NCBI GenBank assembly: GCA_947073765.1
Contig: CAMTMZ010000003.1
Coordinates: forward strand, 1 to 64,000
Origin: an uncultured Bacillota bacterium
Lineage (GTDB): Bacteria > Bacillota > Clostridia > Oscillospirales > Oscillospiraceae
Direction: 5' to 3'
DNA: 64,000 bases
The notes beneath the pieces were generated by a model that had not been told where the DNA came from, made no database searches, and saw only the letters and a list, made by a program, of their open reading frames with translations. Below, piece by piece: positions 20,901 through 56,132 of this stretch; the stretch's first letter is position 1, and every line of letters starts with the position of its first letter. A program made the position numbers and the translations under genes.

Positions 20901-22706
20901 TTTCCCGGCCAGAAGGTTTATATTGTGGCGGGGAGCGACGTGGTGGCCAACGCATCTTCCTACAAGGTGCCCCCCCAGCCCTGCTCCATCCACCGGATGA
21001 ACCATGTGATCTTCCGCCGGGCGGGGGAGGCGGAGCTGCCCGCGCCGCTGCCCATCTCCGGTGAGGTGATACAGCTGCAGCTGCCCCCCCACCTGGAGGA
21101 TATCAGCTCCACCCGCATCCGGGAGAATGTGGATCTGAACCGAGATATTTCCAACTTTATCGACCCGGTGATTCAGGATTTTATCTATCAGAATGGGCTG
21201 TATCTCCGGGACAGCCAGGATAAGCCCATGCTGGGGGCAGGCGACCTGGAGTTTGAGTGGGCGGGAGAGCCGGACCCCATGCTGGTGGACAGCCTGACCG
21301 CGGGGCAGCCCGGCCGGGAGGCGGTGCGCACCGCCATCACCGATCAGGGAGACCGGGTGCTGCTGCTGCGCCGGGCCGGAGCTGGGGATATTCTGGGCTA
21401 CATCGCCTACCGTGCCCTTACCACCTCTCAGCTGTTCGCGGCCCTGGGGGATACTGAGCTTGCCAACCGCGTGCGCCTGCGGGCCGCGGGCAAGACGCTG
21501 CTGATCACCGCACTGGCTGCCGGCACCGGGGAGTCCTTTAAGGACTACCACCAGCTGCTGCTGTGTGAGCTGTTGGCCCGGGCCCTGGAAGAGGGGTGCG
21601 TGTATGGGGTGTTCTTCCCCCACGACGGCCGGATGAGCGAGGGGTTGGAGGATGTGCTGACCCGCACCGGCTTTGTGGTGCGGGAGGAGGGGCGGCCCAT
21701 CTGGGAGAGCGATATGCACGCCCCCACCACCCTGATTCAAAATTTGGAGACCACCATTCAGGAACCGCTGTGCCAAAACCCCAAAGTGCTGGCCGCCGTC
21801 CGGCGCAGCCACCAAAGCCTGCAGCGGGCCCTGGCCGGGCTCTACCCAGGGTCGCTGCTGCTCACCCTGTCCGCCGACATCATTCACCAGCGACTGCTGG
21901 AGAAAATTACCACCTACAACAATGTGCCCGCCGTGCCCACCACCCCCCGGGTACTGGGGGAGAACATGTGCGTGCCCTATGGTAAGCTCCTGCGGGGAAA
22001 GATGGTGCCCAACACAGTGACCAAAACCATACACACGGACCGGGTCTACTCCCCCGACCTGTCTGAGAGTGTGATGGAGCCCTTCCCATACTACGCCCCA
22101 ATCTCCAGCCAGATCAGGACTATCAAGTCCTTTGACCGGCCGGTGATCCTGGTGGATGATATGATGCACCCGGGCTTCCGCTTCAAGGCGCTGGACCCCA
22201 TTCTCCGCCGGGAGGGGGTGCCCATCCGCATGGTCCTGGTGGGGCTGCTGTCCGGCTACGGAAAGGACCTGATGGACGCGTGGGAGCGGCCGGTGGACTC
22301 GGTCTACTACCTGCCTACCCTGCGGCAGTGGTTTATTGAGGCCACACTGTACCCCTTTATCGGGGGGAATACGGTGCGGCGGTCCAGCTCCCCGGTGCCC
22401 GGTCTGCTGCCCGGCATCAACCACATTCTGCCCTACGCCAGCCCCATCTATCAGGAGTCCTGCGCCCGGGAGGCTGTGTTCAACCTGTCCCGCACCTGTC
22501 TAGAGGGGGCGCTGGACGTGATCCGCACCCTGGAACAGGAGTACCGTGTGCTGTATGGCCGCAACCTCACGCTGGCCCGCCTGCCCGAGGCGGTGATACT
22601 CCCCCTGTGCCCCGACAAGGGCACCTGCCTGCACTATGACCCCACCCTGTCCGCTTCCGTCTATCTGGAAAACGACCTGGAGGTGCTGCTGCGGCAGAAC
22701 CAGTAA
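17913..22706 (+). CDS. 1597-aa multidomain protein: HD domain, helical repeats, NadD-like nucleotidyltransferase, GNAT-like, PRTase-like C-terminus
   Basis: HD: AAAAHDVGKFG...HIAANHSTWD; nucleotidyltransferase: IAFFPGTFDPFTLSHKGIV and ISSTRIREN; PRTase-like PRPP loop: PVILVDDMMHPGFRFKAL. Confidence 0.85.
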   Translation: MNKMIRQLNRDILEALSARRTGGAAGRRTVQDMMKRPEWTAGLAALFPIRERLSCARVLELCAPTLNRLCPKVPEKGWGPFTYQYVCHTMFPDGGFAPEAGRCGAGAEFYLTVLQVLLDQERAALPFDPMLDFQFLSEEEYEACDKAHEYRRFLAAWRGEFLYELMRLGMEFTPFKTLSHIAGVHYIAMTAARGLAAAGVEVDMALISGAAAAHDVGKFGCRPGERVPYLHYYYTDQWLLERRMEDISHIAANHSTWDLELESLSVESLLLIYADFRSKSERGSRGEEIVVLYPLDESFQVILSKLDNVDRKKRRRYEFVYGKLHDFEDYMRRLGVDVDLTGERQDPAPVKDPALMGPEETLDGLILLSVEHNLQLMHMLSNEQRFGNIIEAARSTKSWQQLRAYLNVFGEYFTYLSVRQKTQALSFLYELLMHREGDIRRQAGALIGQIIARFHLVYRKELPAHAQNDPAEEVPFTLWGQYLDMIIFPDHKTTPQQRSHISYTLKLVVESMLTHARPGDIPRFLDALLRYFNDPEHTDDDTAFTLLDAVRYLPPKHYGEQTRERLVDFAAHFAASQDLRLVTAALQFLRETVRNIPRSHPQMARIADIVQGVPSSQLTTVFLKCRILRRAGRNVSALEDTLYGADITSEVFLDNLKTATAWIVKVAGVELLRDQVEHGMQAHILHIATHFSNLVKVSERVVVRHTAGSALVHTLSLLRRDQRNEVVVELGKGLEMGQYEISKYIPQYLGEAALYLHPSELDEQVLWLKTLLGSPNDSAVAGALNTIAVLLQHYPAYQQRFPERREVYEGRRQELLGLLLQGLAHYRETVRQEALLVTGKLLFESPLLDMEEKARLFSLSYRKLLFLTQESSSQRDGLTFFYRAAALACINRFIALRRLDQGPFTFEKPRKIAFFPGTFDPFTLSHKGIVHAIRDLGFEVYLAVDEFSWSKKAQPHLIRRQIVNLSVAGDFHVHLFPDDIPVNIANPADLRRLTDLFPGQKVYIVAGSDVVANASSYKVPPQPCSIHRMNHVIFRRAGEAELPAPLPISGEVIQLQLPPHLEDISSTRIRENVDLNRDISNFIDPVIQDFIYQNGLYLRDSQDKPMLGAGDLEFEWAGEPDPMLVDSLTAGQPGREAVRTAITDQGDRVLLLRRAGAGDILGYIAYRALTTSQLFAALGDTELANRVRLRAAGKTLLITALAAGTGESFKDYHQLLLCELLARALEEGCVYGVFFPHDGRMSEGLEDVLTRTGFVVREEGRPIWESDMHAPTTLIQNLETTIQEPLCQNPKVLAAVRRSHQSLQRALAGLYPGSLLLTLSADIIHQRLLEKITTYNNVPAVPTTPRVLGENMCVPYGKLLRGKMVPNTVTKTIHTDRVYSPDLSESVMEPFPYYAPISSQIRTIKSFDRPVILVDDMMHPGFRFKALDPILRREGVPIRMVLVGLLSGYGKDLMDAWERPVDSVYYLPTLRQWFIEATLYPFIGGNTVRRSSSPVPGLLPGINHILPYASPIYQESCAREAVFNLSRTCLEGALDVIRTLEQEYRVLYGRNLTLARLPEAVILPLCPDKGTCLHYDPTLSASVYLENDLEVLLRQNQ

Positions 22707-40332: not shown

Positions 40333-41919
40333 TTATAAATTGGAAAATACGTCCATCTGCTTTTGCAGCTCCCCTACAATCTCCTGATTGGTGCCCATGC
40401 CGGCAGTGATGCCCTCCATATCATCCACCAATACGCGGGTGCTGCCGGCAACGCCGGTGACGTCGGATACCGCATCGTCGATTGCGCCGGAGATATTGGA
40501 GATGGACCCGGCGATATCGTCCATTGCAGTCTTCAGCCGGGCGGTTCGGTCGTTGAACGCCTCCATAGCGTGTCCCACGTAGTCGGAGTCCTCCCGATAC
40601 TGCTGACCGGCCTGTACAGACCGGTCCAGCTGAGTCATTATCGCCTGACTCAGGTAGCCGGCCAGCTCCCGGGCGCTCTCTGAGAGGTAGTCCACCGCTC
40701 CCGTAACCACACCGCTGACCTCTTGGATATTGTTGGCCGTCTCGGCACAGGAGTCGGCCAGCTGGCGGATCTCCTGCGCCACGATAGAAAATCCGGCGCC
40801 CGCCGCTCCCGCCCGGGCAGCCTCGATGGAGGCGTTGATGGCAATCAGGTTGGTAGAGGCCGAAATGTTGAGAATCGCCTTGGTCAGAACGCTGATCTGG
40901 TTGACGTTCTGGCTTTTTTCAATGGCCTGATCCAGAAGAGACATGATTTCCGACGTCTTTTTTCGCACCTCATCCATCTCCAGCCGGGCGGAGCGTTCCA
41001 TCTCCTCGGCCCGTTCCCGCATTTCCACGGAGTAGGCCGTAATGGCGGAGCACTCCTCCGCCATGGTCCGGGCGTCAGACTGGGTGCCGGAGGTGCTGCG
41101 CTGGATGGCTGACGTGCTGGCGGCGATTTCCTCCAGGGCGGCAGAGAGCTGCTCCGCCAGGCCGGACAGGTCCCGGACGCTGCCGCTGGAGGTCTGTGTC
41201 CGCTGGCGCACATCGCTCACCACGCCGCTGATGCGTTCAGAGCTGTCCTGAAGGGTGTCCATCGCGTCGTGAATCGGGGAAATCACATGCTTCCGGATGA
41301 TGCGGAACGCCGCCGCCACCAGAAGGACGCCGGCAGTCAGGGTGGCCGCGCTGATGACCAGCGCGGTAATGTAGACAAAGGTCAAATGTCTGCGTGCGGC
41401 CTCGGCCCGGTCGCTGACCGCGGCGTAGAGATTGGCGACGCTCTGATCTGCGGCCTCGCTCCAATGGGCCACATCCCCGTTGGCCGTGGCGTAGGCCTCC
41501 TGGGTCTTACTGTCGGCGCTGGCGCACACCAGATCGACCAGAGCGTGTTTGAAGGCGTCGTAATCCTGAAGAAGGGACTGGTAAACCGCTGCGTCCTCCT
41601 CGGAAACAAAGCTCTCATAGCTGGCCAGCATCTCATCCAGAGATGCCTCCTTTGCCTTGATTTCCTGGACGAGCCGGATCATGGTCGCGTGATCTGCCGC
41701 CACAATATGGGACAGGGCCAGCAGGTGAATATCTGTCATGGAGCGCCTGATTTCTTCCAGCTTTCCTTCACTGACCATATACTCGTCCACAATGGTTCCT
41801 GCATTGGAGTGGACGTTGTTGATGCTGAACACCGCCAGAATGTTGGACAGAAACGCCACCAGCCCCAGCAGAACGATGGGCAGAATTAAACGCTGCTGTA
41901 ATGTCAGTTTGCCTCTCAT
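40333..41919 (-). CDS. Methyl-accepting chemotaxis protein
   Basis: Two TMs, HAMP-like region, signalling tip VLTKAILNISASTNLIAINASIEAARAGAAGAGFSIVAQEIRQLADSCAETANNI. Confidence 0.93.
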   Translation of the reverse strand: MRGKLTLQQRLILPIVLLGLVAFLSNILAVFSINNVHSNAGTIVDEYMVSEGKLEEIRRSMTDIHLLALSHIVAADHATMIRLVQEIKAKEASLDEMLASYESFVSEEDAAVYQSLLQDYDAFKHALVDLVCASADSKTQEAYATANGDVAHWSEAADQSVANLYAAVSDRAEAARRHLTFVYITALVISAATLTAGVLLVAAAFRIIRKHVISPIHDAMDTLQDSSERISGVVSDVRQRTQTSSGSVRDLSGLAEQLSAALEEIAASTSAIQRSTSGTQSDARTMAEECSAITAYSVEMRERAEEMERSARLEMDEVRKKTSEIMSLLDQAIEKSQNVNQISVLTKAILNISASTNLIAINASIEAARAGAAGAGFSIVAQEIRQLADSCAETANNIQEVSGVVTGAVDYLSESARELAGYLSQAIMTQLDRSVQAGQQYREDSDYVGHAMEAFNDRTARLKTAMDDIAGSISNISGAIDDAVSDVTGVAGSTRVLVDDMEGITAGMGTNQEIVGELQKQMDVFSNL

Positions 41920-41950
41920 GAGATTTCCTCCCAAGTATCATACTCTGTGC

Positions 41951-43186
41951 CTACCGCGCGGCGACGCTCTCTGCCAGCCGGTCCAGCTGGACCTGAAGAG
42001 AGGCGCCGGAGGGGTTTCCTGCCGCCATATTCAAGGCGAATTCGGATACCGGGTCCCAGAACTTTCCGCCCACCCGCTGGAGCTGGGAAAATTCCGATTG
42101 AGCCAGCAGGGCCGCAATGGCCGGCGAGGCCTGAACCTGCGGGGAATTTGCCGCGCTGATATTGGCCGGGCCCTGTCCCCGCCGCTCAAAGCGCAGGCGC
42201 TGGCTTTCCTCGTTGGTGATCCACTCAGCCAGCCGCGCCGCCCACTCCGGGTGCTCGGAATAGGCATTCACGCCAATCAGCTTGCATCCGCAGAAGGAGG
42301 CCATCTGTATTTGTCTCCCCGCACAGGTATAGCAGGGCAGCTTGGCCGCCCCGGTATTCTCTCCCCAGGCCTCCTGAACCGCTACAGCGTTCCAGACGCC
42401 GCTCACCCCGGCAATTACAGAGCCATTCTGCACACCGGCCAGAAATTCCTGATCCGTCATATTGGCAAAGCCGGGACTGCCTGCGATGGACAGCATGGCC
42501 TCGGCCACATCCACGCCGCGTATGGTCCCCTCGGTGCTGTTCCAGGTGCAGTAGTTGGTAAGGCCATCTTCGTTAAGGCCGACGGTCAGACCGGTGTTGC
42601 CGAAAAAGGCGTAGACATACCACGCGGAGGACCAGTCCATCGCCACCAGCCGCCCGGCCTGAGCGGCAAGGTCCAGCATCTGCTCCAGACTTTGGATATC
42701 CCCTTCTGAGAAATACGCCTTGTTGTAGTATAGAAAATACCCATTATCCGCGGTCAGGGGGTAGGCGTAGAGGTCGTTCCCCACACTGGCCGCCTCCACC
42801 GCGGCGGAGAGGCTGGCGCTTCGGATCGACGCGCTGTCCCCGATGGGGTCCAGACCTCCGGCCGCAGCCAGGGCGGACACCTGATCGTCGGCGAAAGCAA
42901 ATACGTCCGCTCCCCCCTCCAGATCGCCCAGCAGCGCATCCTTGCAGTTGGATTCGCTCTGGGGCTGAAATGTGATCTGAAAGCTGGCCTGGCCGGCGTA
43001 GTGAGATTGAAATGAAGTAAAAATTTCCTGGAGCAGCACCTCGTCCTCCTCCGCGCCCCACACGGTCAGCTCAATGGTCTCCGGCTCTGCTTCGCGCTCT
43101 GGGGAAGGGGCTTCCCGGCTGCCGCAGGCTGTCAGGAAAACCAGCGGCAGAAACAAGCACAGCGAGAGGAAAAATGTTTTCTTCAT
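41951..43186 (-). CDS. Extracellular solute-binding lipoprotein (ABC-type SBP), no adjacent permeases
   Basis: LVFLTACGSREAPSPER lipobox; ELTVWGAEEDEVLLQEIFTSFQSHYAGQASFQITF. Confidence 0.85.
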   Translation of the reverse strand: MKKTFFLSLCLFLPLVFLTACGSREAPSPEREAEPETIELTVWGAEEDEVLLQEIFTSFQSHYAGQASFQITFQPQSESNCKDALLGDLEGGADVFAFADDQVSALAAAGGLDPIGDSASIRSASLSAAVEAASVGNDLYAYPLTADNGYFLYYNKAYFSEGDIQSLEQMLDLAAQAGRLVAMDWSSAWYVYAFFGNTGLTVGLNEDGLTNYCTWNSTEGTIRGVDVAEAMLSIAGSPGFANMTDQEFLAGVQNGSVIAGVSGVWNAVAVQEAWGENTGAAKLPCYTCAGRQIQMASFCGCKLIGVNAYSEHPEWAARLAEWITNEESQRLRFERRGQGPANISAANSPQVQASPAIAALLAQSEFSQLQRVGGKFWDPVSEFALNMAAGNPSGASLQVQLDRLAESVAAR

Positions 43187-43396
43187 CAGCAACCACCCTT
43201 CCAGTTGATTCCAGGGAATTATACCACATGACTGCCCATATTGGCAATGGCTTTTCTCTGGCCGATATGCGGCGGGCGCAGGAATATCAAGATATAAAAA
43301 GGTTTTTTATCGTACTTGATTTTCTTATAGGCTTCGTTTAGAATAGGATACGTCAGCCGCAAAAAACCTGATTATAAAACAGGGGGGTAAGTTCAA

Positions 43397-43759
43397 ATGC
43401 AGAAGCGTATTTTAGTGGTGGATGACGACGAAATGAACCTGATGAGGACGCAGATCATCCTCGAGGGAAGCTATGATGTAGTGCTGGCGGGTTCAGGGAT
43501 ACGGGCGCTGCATGTGCTGAAAAATGAAAGAATAGACCTGGTCCTTCTGGATATTGACATGCCTTTGATGAACGGGATCGAGACGTTTGAACATATGAAG
43601 GAGTTCGCCGCGGAGATACCTGTCATCTTTTTAACGGCCTCGGGAGAGGTGGAGGACGTGATCGGTGCGCTCCTGCTGGGCGCAGTGGATTATCTGAAAA
43701 AGCCTTATCCGCCAAAGGAACTTTTGAAGCGGGTGGCCCAGGAGTTTGAGAAGAGATGA
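43397..43759 (+). CDS. Response regulator (single REC domain)
   Basis: RILVVDDDEMNLMRTQIILEG...LVLLDIDMPLMNGIETFEHMKEF...VIFLTAS...DYLKKPYPP. Confidence 0.93.
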   Translation: MQKRILVVDDDEMNLMRTQIILEGSYDVVLAGSGIRALHVLKNERIDLVLLDIDMPLMNGIETFEHMKEFAAEIPVIFLTASGEVEDVIGALLLGAVDYLKKPYPPKELLKRVAQEFEKR

Positions 43760-46314
43760 GGGCAGGGGAGCAGACGAGCAGGCATCTGCTGCTGGCAGTT
43801 ATCACCACAGTGTTCAGTGGGATGCTGGGTCTGGTCACTGTGGCTATGGCCTGGGAACTTTGGATGATTCCTCTGATGGCGGCCGGCTGCTTCAGTGTGT
43901 GGCTTCTGCACATTGCGAAGATTGGCTCGGGCGTTTTTTATGAAAATCTCTGCGCTGGATTTGTGCTGCTGGAATTCTTTTTCTTTGGTGTGCATGAATC
44001 CAGCCTTTATGACATACCTGCCATGGCCTGTATTATCGTTCTTGCGCTGTTCGCACTGAACAAGAAATGGGTCGTGTATGCCCTTGAGGCGCTCTATGCG
44101 CTGGCGCTGCTCTACCACGTCTTCATTCTCCATACCATTTCTTTCGATATGGAGTTCCAGGACGGTATCCGCCTGGGGCTGGGGGCTGCTGTGACCTTTT
44201 GCGGGGCGGCGCTGGCAGGATACTGGATCAAGCAGCGCAGTATACAGCGGAAATGGTATGACCATGTGTTTGCTGACCTGGAAGCGTCCGGGAAGCAGAA
44301 CGCTGTTTTTTTGTCAAACGTGTCTCATGAGCTCCGCACACCGATCAATATGGTGATTGGAATCAGCGAGGTAGCGCTGGGAACGGAGCTCTCCCCGGAT
44401 ATCAGGGAAAACATGACGTCAATCAAGCTGGCTGGGATGCGTCTGTCCAGCCAGATCAACAAGATGCTTGACTATACGGAGATTGTGGAAGGTACGCTGA
44501 CCCCGGCCAAGGAGGAGTATATGATCACCTCCGTGCTGAACGACGTCATTACCATGACCGCGCTGCAGAGCAACCGGCAGAATTTGGAGATTGTATTCGA
44601 CATCGATCCGGAGACGCCCGCAGTCCTCGTTGGAGACGCGGAGAAAATCTCCCATGTGCTCAAGACTCTGGTGGAAAATTCCATCAAATTCACAGAGGAG
44701 GGCGGCGTGAACGTCCGCATCGGATACCGACCGGAGAGCTATGGCGTCAATTTGATTATCGATATCTGCGACACAGGCATCGGCATGACGGATTCTCAGA
44801 TGCTGCAGATGTATGACGACTTTTACCAGGCGGACTCCGGAAGCAGCCGCCTGGTGGGCGGCCTCGGCCTCGGGCTTCCCATCGCCCGGGGAATTTTAAA
44901 TGCCATGGGCGGCTTTATCCACTTTGACAGCAAGGAGCAGCAGGGGCTGCACGCCCATATTGTGATTCCTCAGGGGGTGGCGGACGATCAGCCGTGCATT
45001 GTGCTCGACCATGCGGATCAGGTATGTGTCGCGTGCTATTTCCGGCCGGAACGGTACAGCTGTGACGAGGTTCGGGGGTATTATGACGGCCTCATCAGAA
45101 GCCTGCTGGAAGGGCTGGGCATTCATGGATATCAGACACACAGCTTTGAAGGACTTCTTAAATTACAGCGCAGTCATAACCTGACCCATGTGTTCATCGC
45201 GCAGTCGGAGTATGAAGAGGATCGGGCGTACTATGAGGAGCTGGCCGGCACGCTCCGGGTTGTGATCATTGCGGAGAAGGATTTTACGCTGGACAGTGTG
45301 AGCCGGCTGTATGTCATGCACAAGCCCTTTTCTGCGCTCTCCGTTGCCAACCTGCTGAACGGAGACCTGGGGGCGCGGGGCTTCGCGGAGGCTCAGGCCG
45401 CTGGCCGGAAGCCGTTCATCTGCTCAGGCGTCCGGGCGCTGGCCGTGGACGACGAGGAGATGAATCTGGTGGTGGCCAGGGGCGTATTGGGAAGTTATGG
45501 GATTGAAGTTGATACCTGCCTGAGCGGACGGGAGGCTTTGGCGCGGTGTGACAGCACTTCCTATGACATTATCTTCCTGGATCACATGATGCCGGGATTT
45601 GATGGTGTGCAAACCCTGAAAAAGATCCGGGAGCTCCAGAACGGCGCTTATCAGGACCTGCCGGTAATTGCGCTGACCGCAAATACTGTCAGCGGGGCGC
45701 GGGAGATGTTCCGCAGTGAAGGCTTTACAGAATTTGTCCCCAAGCCCATTGAACGCACTGTTCTGGAGCGGGTGCTGCGAAAGGTGCTGCCTAATCGTTT
45801 TATCCAATACGTTGAAGAGTTGGAGGATACGCCCTTGGGCAGTGGGCAGGCTGTTTCGGAAGAGGAGAGGCCTGAGGCCCCTGACGAAGGCTCCGCGCCG
45901 GCGGAGCATGTCGAGCCTGTGGAGGCGGCAGGTTCTGCACAGGCGCCCGCCGGCGAGCCGGCGATTCCCTACGGCCGGCTGACCCAGGCCGGCATCAATG
46001 TAGATCTGGGGCTGAATTACTGCGGCGGAGATGAGAGCTTCTTCCGGGAGATGCTGCGGATGTTCCATGCCAAGGGCGGAGACAAAAAAGCGGAAATTAT
46101 TTCTCTGTATGAGGCTGAAAATTGGACGGACTATGCGATAAAGGTCCATGCGCTCAAGAGCACGTCGCTGACCATCGGCGCAGAGGCCCTTTCCGCGCAG
46201 GCGAAGGAGCTGGAGCTGGCCGGGAAGCGGGGAGACGTGGAGTTTATCCTGGCACATCACGCCGCGCTGATGTGTGCGTACGATGAAATCTGCACGCAGA
46301 TTGCCGGAATATAG
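43756..46314 (+). CDS. Hybrid sensor histidine kinase (TM-HK-pseudoREC-REC-HPt)
   Basis: FLSNVSHELRTPINMVIGISEVALG; IIFLDHMMPGFDGVQ; HPt VHALKSTSLTIGA. Confidence 0.92.
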   Translation: MRAGEQTSRHLLLAVITTVFSGMLGLVTVAMAWELWMIPLMAAGCFSVWLLHIAKIGSGVFYENLCAGFVLLEFFFFGVHESSLYDIPAMACIIVLALFALNKKWVVYALEALYALALLYHVFILHTISFDMEFQDGIRLGLGAAVTFCGAALAGYWIKQRSIQRKWYDHVFADLEASGKQNAVFLSNVSHELRTPINMVIGISEVALGTELSPDIRENMTSIKLAGMRLSSQINKMLDYTEIVEGTLTPAKEEYMITSVLNDVITMTALQSNRQNLEIVFDIDPETPAVLVGDAEKISHVLKTLVENSIKFTEEGGVNVRIGYRPESYGVNLIIDICDTGIGMTDSQMLQMYDDFYQADSGSSRLVGGLGLGLPIARGILNAMGGFIHFDSKEQQGLHAHIVIPQGVADDQPCIVLDHADQVCVACYFRPERYSCDEVRGYYDGLIRSLLEGLGIHGYQTHSFEGLLKLQRSHNLTHVFIAQSEYEEDRAYYEELAGTLRVVIIAEKDFTLDSVSRLYVMHKPFSALSVANLLNGDLGARGFAEAQAAGRKPFICSGVRALAVDDEEMNLVVARGVLGSYGIEVDTCLSGREALARCDSTSYDIIFLDHMMPGFDGVQTLKKIRELQNGAYQDLPVIALTANTVSGAREMFRSEGFTEFVPKPIERTVLERVLRKVLPNRFIQYVEELEDTPLGSGQAVSEEERPEAPDEGSAPAEHVEPVEAAGSAQAPAGEPAIPYGRLTQAGINVDLGLNYCGGDESFFREMLRMFHAKGGDKKAEIISLYEAENWTDYAIKVHALKSTSLTIGAEALSAQAKELELAGKRGDVEFILAHHAALMCAYDEICTQIAGI

Positions 46315-46341
46315 TCTGTTCTGATATTTCCTCTGAGCGCC

Positions 46342-49038
46342 ATGTTGGAAGGAGCGGGAATTTGTGTGATAAAAAAATGGTTTAGTATTATCGTTGACCA
46401 TAAGATCAGCCTGCGTGAGCGTATGTTCCGCATTGCAACAGCGATCTGCATGGTCGCACTGATATTCACCCTGCCCATGGGCAGAAGCGCATTGAACCTT
46501 GTCCTTCTGATGGTAAGCCTGGCGGTCATCGCGGTGATTGTGCGTGTCAGCATTCAAAGAGGACAGGTACAAAACGGAGCTACGGCAATTGTGGTGCTGC
46601 TGCTTGTGCTGTTTCCATTTACATTTTTTACCGCAGGCGGTTTTTACAGCGGAGTGCCGGAGTGGTTCGTCCTTTGCTTTATCTATGTCTGCATCACCCT
46701 GCAGGGAAAACGCATGGCGGTGTTTTTCGTGCTGTGCGCGGCGGAAACACTGCTGTGCTATAGCATCGCTTACTATTTTCCGGAGCTGGCCTCCCTGAAC
46801 ACCCAGCAGCGTTCCTTTTTTGAATCCGCGTTCTCCATGGTCATGGTTGGACTGCTCACCAGTGTGCTGCTCATGTTCCTGAACCGGATGTATGAGGAAG
46901 AGAACGCCCTGACTCAGCAGCAGAAAAAAGAGATTGAAGAGCTGAATCAGGCGGAAAACCATTTCTTCTCCAGCATGAGCCACGAGATTCGCACACCCAT
47001 CAATACTATCATCGGGTTGAATGAGATCACGCTGCGGGGCGATATTCCGGAGGAGGTGGCGGAGAACGCCAGGAATATCCAGGGGGCCAGCAAGCTGCTG
47101 CTCACTCTGATCAATGACATCCTGGATATCTCCAAGATTAAGTCCGGAAAGATGGAGATTATCAACGCATCCTATGAGACGGGGACGCTTTTTTCAGAGA
47201 TTGTCAACATGATCTGGATTAAGGCAAAGGAGAAGGGGCTGGAATTTAAGCTCCACATAGACCCATCTATTCCAAGTATGCTCTGCGGGGACGAGGTGCG
47301 TATCAAGCAGATTTTAATCAACCTGTTAAATAACGCGGTAAAATACACCAGCGAGGGCTCCGTTACCCTCTCTGTCCGGTGCGAGCGCCAGGGTGTCAAC
47401 CGGGTACTCGTCTGGTATTCTGTGGAGGATACCGGACAGGGGGTAAAAAAGGAAAATATTCCATATCTGTTTAATGCGTTCCGGCGGGTGGACGAGGAAA
47501 AAAACCGCCATATCGAGGGGACCGGGCTGGGTCTGAGTATTGTCCAGCAGCTGGTAGAGCTGATGGGCGGCGAGATCAGCGTAAACAGCGTCTATACCAA
47601 GGGGTCAAAATTTGTCGTTACCCTGGAGCAGGATATTGTGGACGAAAAAGAGCTGGGGACATTTACACTGGCCTCCCGGGCGAAGCTTCACGATGAGGGG
47701 ACATACCAGCAGAGCTTTGAGGCGCCAGACGCACATATCCTGGTGGTGGACGACAATGACATGAACCTGATGGTGGTGACCAAGCTGCTCTCAGCCACCA
47801 GGATTCAAATCGACACCGCGTCCAGTGGGGCGGAGTGCCTGAAGCTGACCCAAAACCGCCATTATGACTGCATTTTGATGGACCATCTGATGCCGGAGAT
47901 GGACGGGATCGAGTGTCTCCATGCCCTGCGCGTACAGCCTGGAGGGCTGTGCCAGGATGCTCCTGTGGTGGCCCTGACCGCCAATGCGGGCAGCGACAAC
48001 CAGCTGCTATACCGGAAGGAGGGGTTCAGCGGCTACTTGGCCAAGCCGGTCAGCGGTGCGCTGCTGGAGGCGGCTGTGCTGAACATTCTGCCCAAGGAAC
48101 TGGTGCGGCAGCGTGAGGATGCCGCACAGTCAGAAATGGAAAAGGAAATCCTGATTTTTGAGCAGGCGAAAAGGCGCTCCATCCTGGTTACAACGGACAG
48201 CGTATGTGACCTTCCGGAATCACTCCGCAGGGAGTTTGGCATCTCTGTCTGTCCATACTACGTCTGCACAGAGGAGGGCCGCTTCCTGGATGGCGAGGAA
48301 CTGACGCCGGATGAGCTGCTGGCGCACATTGTAAAGGGGCGGAAGGGCTATTCCCAGCCGCCTGAGGTGGAGGACTACGAGCGGTTTTTCGCAGAGAAGC
48401 TGACAGAGGCGCAGAATGTGATTCACATCACGATGGCAAAGCATGTCAGCACCGGCTATCAAAACGCGCTTGAGGCGGCGAAATCCTTTGATAACGTCAC
48501 CGTGATAGACTCCGGGCATCTCTCCAGCAGTATGGGTCTGGCGGTGCTGTACGCGGCGCAGCTGACAGAGCATCACGCCACAAAGGCGGAGATCACCGCA
48601 TCCATCAGACAGATAGAACACTTGATTTCCTCTGCCTTTATCATAGATAACATCCATATGATGTGCCAGTCGGGACGAATCTCGAAACGTATACAGGTCC
48701 TTTGCGACGCGCTGCTGCTGCACCCGATCCTTGTGCTGAAAAAGAGCAAAATGGTGATAGGCGGTGTGGAAATGGGCGGCTTTAACAGTGTTGCGAAAAA
48801 GTATATCCGGAGGGTGCTTCAGGAGGCCAGGACCATCGACCGGCGCATCCTGTTTATCACGTATTCCGGCCTGGATGAGGAAAAGCTCCAATATATTCAG
48901 AATTTGGTGCGGCAGTACTGTTCGTTTGAACGGATTTATCTGCAAAAGGCATCCTCCGCTATCGCAAGTAACTGCGGACCTGGGTCATTCGGCCTGCTGT
49001 TTATGCGAAAGGATGGTACGGCAGCGTCGACGGCTTAA
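46342..49038 (+). CDS. Hybrid sensor histidine kinase (TM-HK-REC) fused to C-terminal DegV domain
   Basis: FFSSMSHEIRTPINTIIGLNEI; HILVVDDNDMNLMVV...CILMDHLMPEMDGIE; ILVTTDSVCDLPESLRREFGISVCPYYVCTEEGRFLDGEELTPDELL. Confidence 0.93.
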   Translation: MLEGAGICVIKKWFSIIVDHKISLRERMFRIATAICMVALIFTLPMGRSALNLVLLMVSLAVIAVIVRVSIQRGQVQNGATAIVVLLLVLFPFTFFTAGGFYSGVPEWFVLCFIYVCITLQGKRMAVFFVLCAAETLLCYSIAYYFPELASLNTQQRSFFESAFSMVMVGLLTSVLLMFLNRMYEEENALTQQQKKEIEELNQAENHFFSSMSHEIRTPINTIIGLNEITLRGDIPEEVAENARNIQGASKLLLTLINDILDISKIKSGKMEIINASYETGTLFSEIVNMIWIKAKEKGLEFKLHIDPSIPSMLCGDEVRIKQILINLLNNAVKYTSEGSVTLSVRCERQGVNRVLVWYSVEDTGQGVKKENIPYLFNAFRRVDEEKNRHIEGTGLGLSIVQQLVELMGGEISVNSVYTKGSKFVVTLEQDIVDEKELGTFTLASRAKLHDEGTYQQSFEAPDAHILVVDDNDMNLMVVTKLLSATRIQIDTASSGAECLKLTQNRHYDCILMDHLMPEMDGIECLHALRVQPGGLCQDAPVVALTANAGSDNQLLYRKEGFSGYLAKPVSGALLEAAVLNILPKELVRQREDAAQSEMEKEILIFEQAKRRSILVTTDSVCDLPESLRREFGISVCPYYVCTEEGRFLDGEELTPDELLAHIVKGRKGYSQPPEVEDYERFFAEKLTEAQNVIHITMAKHVSTGYQNALEAAKSFDNVTVIDSGHLSSSMGLAVLYAAQLTEHHATKAEITASIRQIEHLISSAFIIDNIHMMCQSGRISKRIQVLCDALLLHPILVLKKSKMVIGGVEMGGFNSVAKKYIRRVLQEARTIDRRILFITYSGLDEEKLQYIQNLVRQYCSFERIYLQKASSAIASNCGPGSFGLLFMRKDGTAASTA

Positions 49039-49284
49039 AGGGAAAAGCAGGGCGGCCTCCACCAGGCTGTCCGCTGATGTGTGGTCGATTTTTTGGAATT
49101 TTTATTTGCATTCCAAAGTCGGCCACACACTTATTTTTTTCACGCAGAAGGAGCACAGCCGATATGCTTGGCTGTGCTTTGTTCTTTGTAAAACGTTTGG
49201 AATCCTTTAACGCATGTCCTCATCTTGCTGCTGACGTTGAGGTTTCCCTGTTCCTGTCCCTTAATGAGAGGGAGATGTTTACTT

Positions 49285-49339: not shown

Positions 49340-50236
49340 TCAATCCAAAACTTCCGGGCGCGCCCGGCGAACCAGCTCGATAAAGCATTCCATATATTGG
49401 GAAAGCCACTTGTCTCTGTGGTAGATAACTTGGGAATAATAAATCTGCGGCGCAAGGTCGACATCCAGTACGGAGATTTTTTTCTTTTCGATAAAATTTG
49501 AAACGGAGTACCGCGGTAGGAAAGAGGCGCTGCGGCTGTCCTGAAGCAGTTCGACGATCGCGCGGATGTTGTCCACTACGATGGAATGGTAGAGAGTAAT
49601 GTTATAATCGGCGGCGATCTCGTGCAGACGCTCGTAACATCGCCCGCTGGGTTCCGCAACAATAAAGGGAACCGACAACATTTCCTCCGGCGGGATAGCT
49701 GTTTTTTTGGCAAAGGGATGCTGCGGCGAGGCAATAAAGGATATTTCCTCTCTGCATCGGTAACAACAGCAAAAGGCCGGGTCGCCGACCAAGTCGTGGG
49801 AGATATAAGCCAGATCAATTTGATTTTGTTTCAGCATTAAAAGCATTTGAGAGGCTTGTCCCAGTTTGATCTCCACATTTACTTTGGGAAACCGCCGGCC
49901 CAATTCAGGTAGCACTTTTAGAATTACCGCAAAAAACAGCGACTCTAGAACTCCGATTCGCAAAGTGCCGCAGATTTCCTGTGGCTCCTGCCCCAGGCCG
50001 CTGACCTTCTGCATCAGGCGGAGTATTTCCGCAGCATGAGGCAGAAATGTCTTTCCGGCTGCCGTTAAGTAGTTTCTGCGGCCAATGCGCTCAAAAAGCG
50101 GGTAACCCAGTTCCTGCTCTAGACGCTGAATCTGCATTGTCACCGTGGATTGGGCAAAATTCAGCTTTTCAGCGGCGCGTGTGTAATTTTCCAGACTGGC
50201 AACCTGTAAAAATGTTTCGATGCTTTGAATGTCCAT
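49340..50236 (-). CDS. LysR family transcriptional regulator
   Basis: MDIQSIETFLQVASLENYTRAAEKLNFAQSTVTMQIQRLEQELGYPLFERIGRRNYLTAAG. Confidence 0.95.
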   Translation of the reverse strand: MDIQSIETFLQVASLENYTRAAEKLNFAQSTVTMQIQRLEQELGYPLFERIGRRNYLTAAGKTFLPHAAEILRLMQKVSGLGQEPQEICGTLRIGVLESLFFAVILKVLPELGRRFPKVNVEIKLGQASQMLLMLKQNQIDLAYISHDLVGDPAFCCCYRCREEISFIASPQHPFAKKTAIPPEEMLSVPFIVAEPSGRCYERLHEIAADYNITLYHSIVVDNIRAIVELLQDSRSASFLPRYSVSNFIEKKKISVLDVDLAPQIYYSQVIYHRDKWLSQYMECFIELVRRARPEVLD

Positions 50237-50261
50237 ATGGTTCTCCTTTTATCTAAAATTA

Positions 50262-50276
50262 TGATTGTTACAATCA
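50262..50276. promoter_or_regulatory. LysR-type operator
   Basis: TGATTGTTACAATCA, perfect dyad matching T-N11-A, in the divergent intergenic region. Confidence 0.55.
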
Positions 50277-50391
50277 GAATAATTTATTTTACAAATCGTT
50301 TCATTGCAATTATACTAAAATTAAGAAAACCATTCAAGTGTTTTCCGGCATTTTACTAATTACAGCAATAGACAGAAAGGATGGATCATAC

Positions 50392-51633
50392 ATGAGCAAA
50401 ATGGCATATTTGAAGGATATGCCCATCGCGGTTCTGGGGGGCGGCGCAGTAGGAAAAACCTGCGCCGCGGACAACAAACTTGCCGGCCGGGAGGTGCGTC
50501 TGTACGACGCCATGCCCTTTGCCGCCACATCCCTGAAGGATGTGGACAAGACCGGCATCCTGCTGGACGGCGTTCAGCGCAACAAGTGCTGCTTTGAGCG
50601 TTCCGGCCGGGCCTATTTCGATTTGGTGACCACCGACATTGCTGCCGCCGTGAAGGGTGCGGGCCATATTATTATTGCTATGGGCTCCTGGGGCCATGAG
50701 GCGACCTTCCGGTCTCTGATCCCTTATCTGGAGGACGGTCAGGTGGTCAACATCTTTGCCGACAACTTTGGCTGCTTGCTGCTCCGCCGCCTGATGCGGG
50801 AAATGGGCTGCGCCAAGAAGGTTATCGTGGGCGGCTGGTCCTCTGCTCCCTATGGCACCCGAATCGAGTCCATCGGCAAGTTCCAGTTCCCTCATGTCAG
50901 CGCCAAGTACCGTGCCATCACCCTGCGGGGCGCCGCTCTGCCCATGAAGGATACCGACGATTTTCTGGAAGCCTCTCAGTACCTGCCCTGTATGGACGCC
51001 GTGACCCAAGGAGACGGTCCCTCCAAGGCGAATACGATTCTGGATGTGGACTTTGCCAATGTAAACCCTGTCATCCATGTTCCCGCCACAGTGTTGGGGG
51101 TATCCACCATGGAAAACTGGGGGGTCATTTTCTGCGGCCACGACAAAACTACCTATTCCATGTACTCCCACGGCCTGTGTCCTTCCATCTGTGAGGTACA
51201 GTACCAGTTCTATAACGAGGAGATCGCCCTGGCTAAAGCCATTGGCGTGGGCTGCCCGGAGTACAAGTACGAGATGTTCTTTTCCCGCCGAAGTGTGCTG
51301 ACTCAAGAGTATATGGGGTTGGATGAGAATGGAAACGACAACGTGGTCTTCCCGCTGGATCAGCCCTCCAGTGAGGGCAACACCGGCCCCAACACCATCC
51401 ACCACCGCTACATGACCGAGGACGTGCCCATCGGCTGTAAAATCTACCACGACTTAGGCGTCCAATACGGCGTGCCTACCCCCATCATTGACGCCATGAT
51501 TATCCTGGCTGGCGCCATGCATAAGAAGAGCTTCTTTGAGAACAGCCGGTACACCCTGGCCTACCTGGGCATTGATAACATGCCTAAGGAGGAGTTGCTG
51601 GCCTATCTGAACGACGGCGCCTACAGACGCTGA
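50392..51633 (+). CDS. NAD/NADP octopine/nopaline dehydrogenase family protein
   Basis: MPIAVLGGGAVGKTCAADNKLAGREVRLYD...; C-terminal helical domain NWGVIFCGHDKTTYSMYSHGLCPSICEV. Confidence 0.8.
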   Translation: MSKMAYLKDMPIAVLGGGAVGKTCAADNKLAGREVRLYDAMPFAATSLKDVDKTGILLDGVQRNKCCFERSGRAYFDLVTTDIAAAVKGAGHIIIAMGSWGHEATFRSLIPYLEDGQVVNIFADNFGCLLLRRLMREMGCAKKVIVGGWSSAPYGTRIESIGKFQFPHVSAKYRAITLRGAALPMKDTDDFLEASQYLPCMDAVTQGDGPSKANTILDVDFANVNPVIHVPATVLGVSTMENWGVIFCGHDKTTYSMYSHGLCPSICEVQYQFYNEEIALAKAIGVGCPEYKYEMFFSRRSVLTQEYMGLDENGNDNVVFPLDQPSSEGNTGPNTIHHRYMTEDVPIGCKIYHDLGVQYGVPTPIIDAMIILAGAMHKKSFFENSRYTLAYLGIDNMPKEELLAYLNDGAYRR

Positions 51634-51662
51634 TTCGGATGCGGGCAGTTCGGAGGACAGCT

Positions 51663-53003
51663 ATGGAATTTATCACGGATCACCGCACAGAACGTTATAT
51701 TCTGGACACCAAATGGAAGGATCTGTCTGAAAAAGCAAAGATACATATTCAGATGTGCGGCGTCGACCTGATGACGGCGCTGATCCTGGGCAGCTACGGA
51801 AACCAGTTCAAGGCGGGCCAAAAACTGGCTCAAAGCATGGGCCTTTCCGGCAGTATCCCTGTTATCGGTTCTGATACGCGCTACAATCTTTTGGGTGCAT
51901 CCATCGTTATGGGTCACAGCAGCAACTCGTTCGATATTGACGATGGCTACCGGATGATCTGCGGACATCCCGGTACATCCTTCGTGGCTGGTACCCTGGC
52001 AACGGCCTGGGACCGGGACGTCAGCTATCGGGAGTACCTGACCACGCTGTCCGTCTGCTATGAGATCACCATCCGCTGGGCCCTCGCCATGCAGGATCAT
52101 TACCACTTTATGCACAGCACCGGCGCCTACGGGGCTTTCGGCACCGCCGCAGGTATGGGTCGCCTGATGGGCCTGGACGAGAAGCAGCTGAACAACGCCC
52201 TGTCTGTCGCCGATTTCCATGCCCCCATGGTTCCGGTGATGCGTTCGGTGGAATACCCCTCCATGAACAAGGATGGCGTTCCCTTCGGCGCTTTGGTGGG
52301 TACAATGGCTGTTTTGGAGACGTTGAGCGGCACCACAGGAAAAACACACATTTTGGAGCTTCCAGAATACCGCAAGCATCTCGATACTCTGGGTAACGTC
52401 TACTATGGTACCGAGCTTTACTTTAAGCCATACACCTGCTGCCGCTGGGCGCATCAGCCCATTTGGGCCTGCCAGAACATGATGAAGGAGCACGGCTTTA
52501 CCTTCCGAGAGGTTGACCATGTTAAAATCAACACCTTTGGATCGGCCGCCAGACTGAGCAAAATCAAACCCGCAAGCACAGACGAGGCGCAGTATAACAT
52601 CGCATTCCCGGTAGCCGCCGCCCTAGTGCATGGAGATGTGTCCTATAGTCAAGTTCGGGAGGAGGCGCTTACCGATCCGAATGTGCTGAACATGATGGAC
52701 CGGCTGGAGTTTTCTGTAGACCCGGAGATGGAGCGGCAGTTTCCGGGCAAGCGCCTGGCCTGGTGTGAGATCACACTGAAGAGCGGTGTCCGGCTCCGCT
52801 CCAGAGTATATGACGCGCCGGGAGAACCGGAAGACCCCGAACTGGGTCTGGATTGGATTCTTAAAAAGTTTAAGCGGATCACTGCGCTGATGCTGAACGA
52901 GACAGATCAGGACATGCTGTTGGACCTGATGACGCGGCAGTTGGATACGCCTGTCCGTGTGTTGGTAGAAAAGATCAACGGTTCTCTGCGGCGGGATATT
53001 TAG
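51663..53003 (+). CDS. MmgE/PrpD family protein
   Basis: LLGASIVMGHSSNSFDIDDGYRMICGHPGTSFVAGTLATAW...HFMHSTGAYGAFGTAAGMGRLMGLDEKQLNNAL. Confidence 0.88.
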   Translation: MEFITDHRTERYILDTKWKDLSEKAKIHIQMCGVDLMTALILGSYGNQFKAGQKLAQSMGLSGSIPVIGSDTRYNLLGASIVMGHSSNSFDIDDGYRMICGHPGTSFVAGTLATAWDRDVSYREYLTTLSVCYEITIRWALAMQDHYHFMHSTGAYGAFGTAAGMGRLMGLDEKQLNNALSVADFHAPMVPVMRSVEYPSMNKDGVPFGALVGTMAVLETLSGTTGKTHILELPEYRKHLDTLGNVYYGTELYFKPYTCCRWAHQPIWACQNMMKEHGFTFREVDHVKINTFGSAARLSKIKPASTDEAQYNIAFPVAAALVHGDVSYSQVREEALTDPNVLNMMDRLEFSVDPEMERQFPGKRLAWCEITLKSGVRLRSRVYDAPGEPEDPELGLDWILKKFKRITALMLNETDQDMLLDLMTRQLDTPVRVLVEKINGSLRRDI

Positions 53004-53115
53004 CGCTTTCCCTTCTTCTTTAGAGGAAACAGAGACGATCTGCCGTTTCATTCTGGGGGATTGCCCTGTTTCCTCTCTTCTCGTGGAAACTGACTTTACA
53101 GCAAGGAGGTTCTTG

Positions 53116-55068
53116 ATGAGATTTTTCAAAAAGAAAGAAGACAAACCTGTAGATATCGACCTTCACGAATTGGAGGTCGAGTCGGGCAACCGACTGGAAC
53201 ATCTGCCCGGCTGGACACAAAAAATGGTTGCTGTCGTGGCAATTATGTGGACTGTTTTCCAGGTTTACACCGCCCTGACAGGCCTGTTTCCCGCCATGAT
53301 CCAACGTATGACGACCCTGTCTTTCGGTCTGTTTCTCTGCTTTATCTGCTTTAAGATGAAGCGGAATGACACCAATAAAGTGCCGATCTACGATTGGATT
53401 TTGGCCATCGTCTCCGTTGCGATCGACGTCTATATCATCGCCACCTTTGACACGCTGACGAAACGCGGCGGAAATCCTACCCAGATGGATATCATATTTG
53501 GTATTCTTCTGATCCTCCTGGTTTTGGAGGGGACCCGTCGGGCCGTGGGTAAGCCGCTAGTGATCGTGGCGCTCCTCTTTCTGCTCTACGCCTATTTCGG
53601 CCCATATCTTCCCGGGGCCATTTCCCACCGCGGCTACAGCATCAACCGCATTTCGTCCCAAATGTTTCTGACTGCTGAGGGCATCTTTGGAACTCCGATG
53701 TCAGTTATGACCACCTTTGTTTACAGCTTTGTGGTTTTTGGCTGTTTCCTGGAGGTTACCGGGGGCGCGAAGCTGTTTATCAACCTGGCCTTTGCCCTGA
53801 CTGGCAAATTCGCCGGCGGACCTGCGAAGACGGCAGTTGTTGCCTCCGGTCTGCTTGGGACGATTTCCGGGTCTGGTCTTGCCAATGTGGTCACCACCGG
53901 CACTTTTACGATCCCTTTGATGAAAACCTGCGGTTACGACGCTACCTTTGCCGGAGGTGTGGAGGCTTCTTCTTCCTCAGCGGGGCAGATTATGCCGCCA
54001 GTTATGGGTGCGGCCGCCTTTATCATGGCAGAGACGACGGGCGTTCCTTACCTGCAGATTTGTATTGCAGCTGCGATTCCCGCAGTCCTATACTACATGT
54101 GTGTAATGCTCTCTGTGGATTTTGAGGCCCGCCGCTGCCATTTGAAAACGGTGGCGCGGGAGGAGGTTCCAGATCTGCTCCCCACCCTCAAGCGCTGCTA
54201 TCCTCTTTTGCTGCCTATCGCGACATTGATCGTTATGCTGTGCATTGGATTTACTCCCCTGAAGGCCTCCATCTATGCGACAGCGGCCATGATCCTCACC
54301 TCTTTTTTAAGCAAAGAGACCCGGCTCAATGGCAAGCGGACGCTTGAAGCCCTGACAAAGTCGGCCTACAATTCAATCACTGTCTGTGTGGCCTGTGCCG
54401 TTTGCGGAATTGTCACCGGCGTTATCACGCTGACCGGTTTGGGACTGAAACTCTCCGACCTGATCCTGACAGCCTCGGGAGGTGACCTCTTCCTCACGCT
54501 CCTGTTGACCATGGTCGCATCCATTATCCTGGGCATGGGGCTGCCCACCACGGCAAAATACATTGTTTTGTCCGCCATCGCGGCTCCCGCTCTGGTCAAG
54601 CTGGGTGTGCCCTTGGTTGGCGCACATCTGTTCATTCTGTACTTTGGCGTAATTGCTGAGGTCACGCCTCCCGTCGCCCTCACCTCCTATGCCGCCGCCG
54701 CGGTGGCAAAGGCGCCAGGGGTAAAAACAGCCCTGCAGGGCCTGAAGATTTCCATCGGCGCGTTCTTCATTCCCTTTATGTTCTGTTACTACCCATCACT
54801 GCTGTTCGTCGATGTTACCCCAGCTGGCCTGTTCGCCGGCTTTTACAGCGCGTTTATCGGCATGATTTGCCTCTGTGGCTGCTCGATCGGTTATTTCTTC
54901 GGCCCGCTGAAGACTTGGAAGAGAGTCTTTATGTTTCTTGGTGTCGCGCTTCTGCTGCATCCCAGCACTGTGACGGATATCCTGGGCACAGTTGTGGTTT
55001 TGATCATGTTCCTGGTTCAAAAGCGCATGACTGGGAAGGGCTCTCAGGCTGTTTCAGCCGAATCTTAA
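53116..55068 (+). CDS. TRAP transporter permease, fused small/large subunit
   Basis: Multi-TM, GGPAKTAVVASGLLGTISGSGLANVVTTGTFTIPLMKTCGYDATFAGGVEASSSSAGQIMPPVMGAAAFIMAE. Confidence 0.93.
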   Translation: MRFFKKKEDKPVDIDLHELEVESGNRLEHLPGWTQKMVAVVAIMWTVFQVYTALTGLFPAMIQRMTTLSFGLFLCFICFKMKRNDTNKVPIYDWILAIVSVAIDVYIIATFDTLTKRGGNPTQMDIIFGILLILLVLEGTRRAVGKPLVIVALLFLLYAYFGPYLPGAISHRGYSINRISSQMFLTAEGIFGTPMSVMTTFVYSFVVFGCFLEVTGGAKLFINLAFALTGKFAGGPAKTAVVASGLLGTISGSGLANVVTTGTFTIPLMKTCGYDATFAGGVEASSSSAGQIMPPVMGAAAFIMAETTGVPYLQICIAAAIPAVLYYMCVMLSVDFEARRCHLKTVAREEVPDLLPTLKRCYPLLLPIATLIVMLCIGFTPLKASIYATAAMILTSFLSKETRLNGKRTLEALTKSAYNSITVCVACAVCGIVTGVITLTGLGLKLSDLILTASGGDLFLTLLLTMVASIILGMGLPTTAKYIVLSAIAAPALVKLGVPLVGAHLFILYFGVIAEVTPPVALTSYAAAAVAKAPGVKTALQGLKISIGAFFIPFMFCYYPSLLFVDVTPAGLFAGFYSAFIGMICLCGCSIGYFFGPLKTWKRVFMFLGVALLLHPSTVTDILGTVVVLIMFLVQKRMTGKGSQAVSAES

Positions 55069-55109
55069 CAACGGCTGCGTATAAAACAGATCAATAAGGA
55101 GGAACTGTA

Positions 55110-56132
55110 ATGAAAAAAATCCTATCGCTCGCACTTGCGGCTGCTATGGCGCTGTCTCTGGCCGCCTGCGGAAATGGCTCCTCTCCTGGCGGGACGCCGG
55201 CCTCCGGCAGCAACAGCAACTCTGGACCCGCGCAGCCTGGTACCGGAGGCAAGGGCATCTATTTGTCCCTGGGCACTGGCGGTGTAACCGGTACCTATTA
55301 CCCCTTGGGCGGCGCCTTTGCCAACATGATCACCAACAATATCGATGGCTACACCTGTACGGCCGAATCTACCGGCGGCTCGGTTGAGAATGTTTGGATG
55401 CTGGCACGGGGAGAAATTGACATCGGCTTTGTGGATGCATCCTCCGCCTACCAATCCCAGCACTCCGAGGGGGACTTCTCTGACGGCAGCGCGTCCAGCA
55501 TTAAGCCCATTGTCTCTATTTACAACGAGCTGGTCCAGTTGGTTTCCTGTGACTCTAATATTACCTCCATTGCTGATTTAAAGGGCAAGAAAGTTGCGGT
55601 AGGTTCCGCTGGCTCCGGCACTGAGGTGATGGCCCGCCAATTGCTGGCGCTGTATGATTTGAGTTACGATGATATCGATGAGGATTTCCTGGGATTCGGC
55701 GATGCCTCTACTGGCCTGAAGGATAAGACGCTGGACGCGGCCATTATCTGGGCCGGCGCGCCGACCTCCGGCCTGCTGGAATTGGGTGCGCAGAACGACT
55801 TCTATATGATCGATATTCCTGCAGACAAAATCGCCAAACTGAAGGAAACCCAGCCCTTCTGCGTTGAAGTTATGATTGACAGCACCATGTATTCCGGTAT
55901 GAAGAACACCGCGACTACCATCGGCGTTCCGGCAACGCTGTGTGTCCGGGGAGACCTGGATGAGGATCTGGTCTATAATTTTCTCACCTACTGCTTCGAG
56001 CATCTGGACCAGGTTGCAGATGCCCATACACAGGGAGCGAACCTGTCTTTAGAGACGGCCCTGCTTGGCCTGGAAAATACCGAGCTGCATCCCGGCGCTG
56101 TGAAGTTCTATACGGAAAAAGGACTTTTTTAA
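55110..56132 (+). CDS. TAXI family TRAP transporter solute-binding lipoprotein
   Basis: LSLAACGNGSS lipobox; LSLGTGGVTGTYYPLGGAFANMITNN...TAESTGGSVENVWMLARGEIDIGFV. Confidence 0.93.
   Translation: MKKILSLALAAAMALSLAACGNGSSPGGTPASGSNSNSGPAQPGTGGKGIYLSLGTGGVTGTYYPLGGAFANMITNNIDGYTCTAESTGGSVENVWMLARGEIDIGFVDASSAYQSQHSEGDFSDGSASSIKPIVSIYNELVQLVSCDSNITSIADLKGKKVAVGSAGSGTEVMARQLLALYDLSYDDIDEDFLGFGDASTGLKDKTLDAAIIWAGAPTSGLLELGAQNDFYMIDIPADKIAKLKETQPFCVEVMIDSTMYSGMKNTATTIGVPATLCVRGDLDEDLVYNFLTYCFEHLDQVADAHTQGANLSLETALLGLENTELHPGAVKFYTEKGLF

Follow-up and report, generated by a model that had tools for sequence, protein, structure and literature searches.

The 64,000-nucleotide stretch of DNA analyzed here (the window) contains a three-gene operon, spanning 43397-49038, that encodes a lone receiver (REC), a hybrid kinase of HK-REC-HPt architecture, and, as its third gene, a hybrid kinase fused to a DegV domain (HK-REC-DegV). 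Genes 1 and 2 overlap by 4 bases. The operon and its putative signals are as follows.

43316..43344, + strand: promoter-like site before the operon (consensus scan alone, 9/12, weak)
43397..43759, + strand: gene 1, stand-alone REC of 120 amino acids, probable terminal phospho-acceptor (Pfam Response_reg, 2.6e-28)
43756..46314, + strand: gene 2, membrane hybrid kinase HK-REC-HPt of 852 amino acids (Pfam HisKA, HATPase_c, Response_reg, and Hpt)
46048..46236, + strand: HPt domain of gene 2, amino acids 765-827 (Pfam Hpt, 3e-5, at the gathering score)
46342..49038, + strand: gene 3, HK-REC-DegV fusion (898 amino acids as annotated; 890 from the probable start)
49150..49180, + strand: terminator-like hairpin behind the operon (consensus scan, 13-pair stem)

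Divergent from the relay operon lie genes for a methyl-accepting chemotaxis protein (MCP; 40333-41934, − strand) and an extracellular solute-binding protein (SBP; 41951-43192, − strand). On its other side (49340-56132), a LysR regulator gene is divergent from octopine-dehydrogenase-like, MmgE/PrpD, TRAP DctM-type, and TAXI/NMT1-like receptor genes, a cluster with an apparent function in uptake and catabolism. Farther away, the first 4,000 nucleotides of the window have a G+C content of 37-48%, versus ∼60% around them, and may be the edge of a mobile island; a D12-class DNA methylase gene (740-2080, − strand) lies inside this low-G+C stretch. A 1,597-amino-acid open frame at 17913-22706 (+ strand) gave a single weak, cytidylyltransferase-like match.

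Gene 3 is one open frame (46342-49038, + strand; 898 amino acids) without an internal stop, in the order membrane segment, HisKA, HATPase, REC, DegV, confirming the preliminary description of a transmembrane HK-REC kinase that runs uninterrupted into a complete DegV domain. Its four Pfam matches all exceeded the curated cut-offs: HisKA (residues 206-269; 5e-15), HATPase_c (316-430; 1e-26), Response_reg (466-579; 5e-22), and DegV (614-889; 2e-41); NCBIfam also assigned a DegV EDD domain (TIGR00762, 4.9e-45). Gene 3 therefore has what defines a hybrid kinase: HisKA with its His, HATPase_c, and REC with its Asp. The kinase His motif is present in 136 of 138 distinct fused genes, and the REC Asp motif in 132-134 of them. 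Translation likely begins at GTG 46366 rather than at 46342, yielding a product of 890 amino acids, because the orthologue alignment starts there (‘MIKKWF’), behind GGAAGGAG.

46347..46354, + strand: Shine-Dalgarno-like GGAAGGAG for the probable start GTG 46366 (sequence; orthologue alignment)
46366..46911, + strand: membrane sensor part, six helices, with an ‘FFTAGG.YSGVPEWFV’ motif (helices in structure model)
46957..47148, + strand: HisKA, phospho-acceptor His214 (Pfam; His214 invariant among 36 relatives)
47287..47631, + strand: HATPase_c (Pfam)
47737..48078, + strand: REC, phospho-acceptor Asp514 (Pfam; Asp514 invariant among 36 relatives)
48181..49008, + strand: DegV domain, amino acids 614-889 (Pfam, 2.1e-41; TIGR00762, 4.9e-45; model pLDDT, 90)

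The membrane sensor part of gene 3 has no Pfam name; its six helices were read from a full-length model whose pTM (0.40) is too low for any domain arrangement.

Other genomes of the same genus encode full-length orthologues (79-96% identity), and across Oscillospiraceae, Lachnospiraceae, and a third family (f66) the full-length fusion is found in >100 genomes. A scan with one genome per species yielded 163 places, the best 80 of which we used as close loci. In these best 80 of 163, which come from independent assemblies and include isolates, the DegV part is 69-92% identical; the kinase part shares its open frame in 79, and a contig end cuts the other locus (L073). Names among the best 80 include Lawsonibacter, Oscillibacter, Anaerotruncus, Acetatifactor, Schaedlerella, and Sporofaciens; we take many of the close-clade records to be mouse-gut material (MGBC, iMGMC, and named mouse isolates). 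The fusion is present in 9 of 391 genomes sampled evenly across the class, whereas 72 of 397 Lachnospiraceae genomes (f51) passed the score, ∼68 of them with a long frame; a phylum-wide sample revealed no further family beyond those two and f66. Candidate DegV fusions with frames of 522-666 amino acids in G317, G146, G293, G124, and G268 were rejected as standalone DegVs with a long upstream open frame without homology.

Relative to close orthologues, the DegV part has a dN/dS of 0.07-0.17, which indicates that the fused DegV domains are under purifying selection. In our tree, fused DegVs group in a single deep clade on a long stem (stem length, 1.02; support, 100); therefore, this type of fusion appears to have arisen once, or to have been inherited from one altered DegV. 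We give no credence to an assembly error at about 48.15 kb or to chance read-through from a kinase gene into an adjacent degV gene, because the identical junction recurs in >100 genomes and in independent assemblies, dN/dS is low, and the fused domains form one deep clade; our searches likewise refuted restriction of the fusion to this genome, part of the other reservation attached to the preliminary description.

At least one inter-family horizontal transfer is clear from sequence comparisons of the Lachnospiraceae genome G1112. Its RpoB is 64% identical to that of the window's genome, versus 87% for the DegV kinase, and it is 80-90% identical to the RpoB of family members whose DegV kinase is 74-78% identical. 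In the tree, the G1112 DegV kinase nests in the Lawsonibacter clade.

The three-gene cassette is common to the 80 close loci, among which we found no conserved flanking genes beyond it, and virtually every locus has a gene 2-type kinase immediately upstream of the DegV kinase. Close to the cassette we found an SBP relative at 4 of the 80 loci and an MCP relative at L101. Proteins of ∼255 amino acids with a C-terminal REC recur beside DegV-kinase genes (L198:3389-4156, L200:3287-4030, and L234:2788-3579; also L213, L216, L220, L223, and L235); the two that we scanned, from L198 and L200, have an N-terminal half without a Pfam match. One operon (L208:4754-10140) contains two tandem HK-REC-DegV genes.

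For the larger comparison, we used the 133 distinct operons in which the partner kinase could be seen, de-duplicated by sequence similarity alone, and called domains with small HMMs built from Pfam-checked members. In all 133, the HPt is found in exactly one place per kinase pair: on the partner kinase (n = 114), on the DegV kinase (n = 14), or in a gene of its own nearby (n = 5); in none do both kinases carry it, and in none is it missing. Where the DegV kinase ends in DegV, the upstream kinase has an HPt; where a longer DegV kinase (∼1,140 amino acids) has an HPt at its end, its upstream neighbor lacks one. According to the tree, the HPt has changed position at least two times. This complementary placement is the best evidence that the kinase pair acts as one phosphorelay, which is what it looks like. 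In the window, the HPt available to the pair is in gene 2, and genes 1 to 3 (43397-49038) would thus pair HK-REC-HPt with HK-REC-DegV in one membrane phosphorelay. We infer that phosphate flows from the kinase His to the REC Asp, then to the pair's single HPt, and finally to the Asp of a receiver outside the pair.

What that receiver does is suggested by the head genes of related operons. Among the 133 distinct operons, 85 have a REC alone at the head, a count that the window's numerous close relatives inflate. A further 26 have a GGDEF and/or HD-GYP protein there and 1 has REC-HPt; in the other 21, no head gene was recognized (example head genes were checked with Pfam). The nearest relatives of the window's lone REC are the RECs of REC-HD-GYP head proteins in sister operons. 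Moreover, the membrane sensor module of the DegV kinases is also found on an HD-GYP-like protein (L300:1390-2589). The HD-GYP-like domain of that protein was recognized from sequence alone, and its gene adjoins one whose product has a Ser/Thr-kinase-like N-terminus. Because of the REC-HD-GYP and REC-GGDEF head genes, the kinship of the RECs, and the shared sensor module, the output of the wider family is likely c-di-GMP turnover. Counting against this for the window itself, its operon contains no GGDEF, EAL, or HD-GYP response regulator, having the lone REC instead; several GGDEF proteins and one HD-GYP match are encoded elsewhere in that genome. Here too we infer a c-di-GMP output: with a receiver that stands alone in the window and is joined to HD-GYP or GGDEF in relatives, the most likely effect of the pathway is to adjust c-di-GMP.

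The DegV domain modeled alone gave a pLDDT of 90, and in Foldseek searches the model matched a fatty-acid-bound Thermus DegV protein (2dt8; TM-score, 0.86) and FakB1 structures (TM-score, 0.81-0.84), with a probability of 1.00 for FakB1/FakB2 entries. The fold is thus a genuine DegV fold. FakB1 holds the carboxylate of its fatty acid with Thr62, Ser95, and His270; Arg173 is a latch and catalytic residue needed for the kinase reaction, Arg205 is the key FakA-binding residue, and complete conservation is reported for both arginines (PMC8892158). We transferred these positions via sequence alignment, not superposition, and compared 139 distinct fused DegVs with 46 standalone DegVs (47 rows less L191, a short locus that corresponds to the fused gene of L194).

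48352..48354, + strand: Ser671, FakB1 Thr62 place, carboxylate hydroxyl (phmmer alignment; S/T in 129/139 fused)
48448..48450, + strand: Ser703, FakB1 Ser95 place (S/T in 116/139 fused)
48676..48678, + strand: Arg779, FakB1 Arg173 place (R in 71/139 fused, 46/46 standalone)
48772..48774, + strand: Met811, FakB1 Arg205 place, with the FakA-binding, membrane-contact Arg lost (phmmer alignment; R in 1/139 fused, 42/46 standalone)
48970..48972, + strand: Asn877, FakB1 His270 place (N in 133/139 fused, H in 2/139; H in 43/46 standalone)

The carboxylate network thus reads Ser, Ser, Asn in the window, departing from FakB at His270, and Arg205, which is Met811 here, is replaced in 138 of 139 fused DegVs. 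Two earlier readings of these positions were dropped: a Thr62-to-Tyr change seen with MAFFT, since phmmer and a wider alignment put Ser671 at that place, and the view, from the 80 close loci, that all fused DegVs have lost the His, since 2 of 139 keep it (e.g., in L193). Because His270 and Arg205 are replaced, while standalones mostly keep both, fused DegVs fail as FakB; the fold and the pair of hydroxyls are nevertheless retained. The preliminary description therefore stands in part: the domain is a conserved, true DegV fold joined to a complete phosphorelay, but it does not read as a FakB-type carrier; neither the operon nor the changed pocket residues figure in that description. Of the two functions proposed there, lipid-responsive signaling may apply and is the better half, and kinase-controlled fatty-acid handling through FakA is unlikely given the loss of the FakA-binding Arg205 and of His270.

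Three observations lead us to favor a ligand-sensing regulatory role over fatty-acid delivery: the DegV domain is mobile, dedicated output genes exist, and the contacts with FakA are lost. Although DegV lies behind REC in the window, it is at the N-terminus in L231, before a dCache sensor and HK-REC-HPt, and in L259, before a six-helix membrane part and HK-REC; in other relatives it is between REC and HPt. The fused DegV is therefore probably a built-in sensor rather than part of a metabolic enzyme. We envisage a FakB-like carrier turned cytosolic sensor, which would have kept the fold and two carboxylate hydroxyls and lost the contacts for transfer to FakA, and whose occupancy by a ligand would set the balance of kinase and phosphatase activities; the likeliest ligand is an amphipathic lipid close to the membrane, such as a fatty acid. 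Taken jointly, the proposal that the operon is one relay that adjusts c-di-GMP, with DegV as its cytosolic sensor for a lipid-type ligand, seems to us evenly poised between right and wrong. Two features count against the sensor: the His-to-Asn change, along with an Arg173 that half of the family has lost, may equally well point to another ligand or to no ligand at all, and the commonest architecture has DegV behind REC, the usual place of an output domain.

The first of these features bears on what DegV binds. A pocket rebuilt by the His-to-Asn change and the loss of Arg could serve another small molecule, and DegV would then sense something other than a fatty acid; family-wide replacement of His270 and Arg205 in a domain that keeps its fold under purifying selection speaks for this. 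We nonetheless consider it unlikely, if still worth serious thought, as the hydroxyls at the Thr62 and Ser95 places are mostly kept and, among the Foldseek matches listed, nearly every solved structure is described as lipid binding. That DegV binds no ligand, its sole role being dimerization or docking between the two kinases, is decidedly improbable: several pocket residues are lost and pairing with one partner kinase is strict, but the domain is full length, with all of its secondary structure and the hydroxyl pair retained, and its position relative to the kinase varies, which a docking geometry would resist.

The second feature, together with a genome that encodes FakA (FakA-like_C match of 7e-74 on contig C16) and an operon without a DNA-binding domain, would fit DegV as the output: REC phosphorylation would open or close the lipid pocket and so control the supply of fatty acids to FakA and phospholipid synthesis. 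DegV does lie directly behind REC in most members, but it is also found N-terminal of the kinase or before HPt, relatives have dedicated c-di-GMP outputs, and most standalones keep the Arg205 and His270 that nearly all fused domains have lost; such a role is hardly probable.

We return, then, to DegV as a sensor. If it senses lipids, these kinases would be a direct molecular link from fatty-acid state to c-di-GMP-type signaling in abundant gut bacteria, and a clear example of a metabolic carrier protein turned receptor; the rule of one HPt per pair, in addition, suggests a natural way in which two hybrid kinases come to be joined in a single relay. Our search of open-access papers turned up no published description of a kinase-DegV fusion. 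More broadly, and with the balance tilting somewhat against the full combination, we tentatively propose a large class of gut-Clostridia relays, hitherto undescribed in the papers searched, in which a degenerate fatty-acid carrier domain serves as a histidine kinase's built-in lipid sensor, wired to c-di-GMP enzymes and passed on horizontally between bacterial families, that lets fatty-acid state inform lifestyle decisions.

Several known systems resemble parts of this arrangement. FakB of the FakAB fatty acid kinase has the same fold and shares the hydroxyls at the Thr62 and Ser95 places; here, however, DegV is covalently joined to a membrane hybrid kinase, Asn replaces His270, Arg205 is lost, and Arg173 is variable. 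DhaQ, a co-activator of the Lactococcus dha operon, is a kinase substrate-binding subunit turned regulator; its structures (2iu4 and 2iu6) were among the Foldseek matches to the DegV model, as distant fold relatives. It too has the fold of a metabolic kinase subunit put to regulatory use, but its partner is a transcription factor and it is not fused to a kinase. BarA/ArcB/TorS-type relays have the same HisKA-HATPase-REC core, with an HPt in the pair; TorS, BarA, and ArcB gave the best NCBIfam kinase matches, although far below their cut-offs, and the systems differ in that two hybrid kinases per operon here share one HPt, one of them carrying DegV, with an unnamed six-helix sensor. In SaeRS of Staphylococcus aureus, a two-component kinase is tied to the fatty-acid pool of FakAB, its activity depending on fatty acid kinase (PMC5539427); the tie is indirect there, and the kinase is without DegV. 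Finally, REC-HD-GYP and REC-GGDEF c-di-GMP systems resemble the head gene of many related operons, whereas the window's clade retains the lone REC only.
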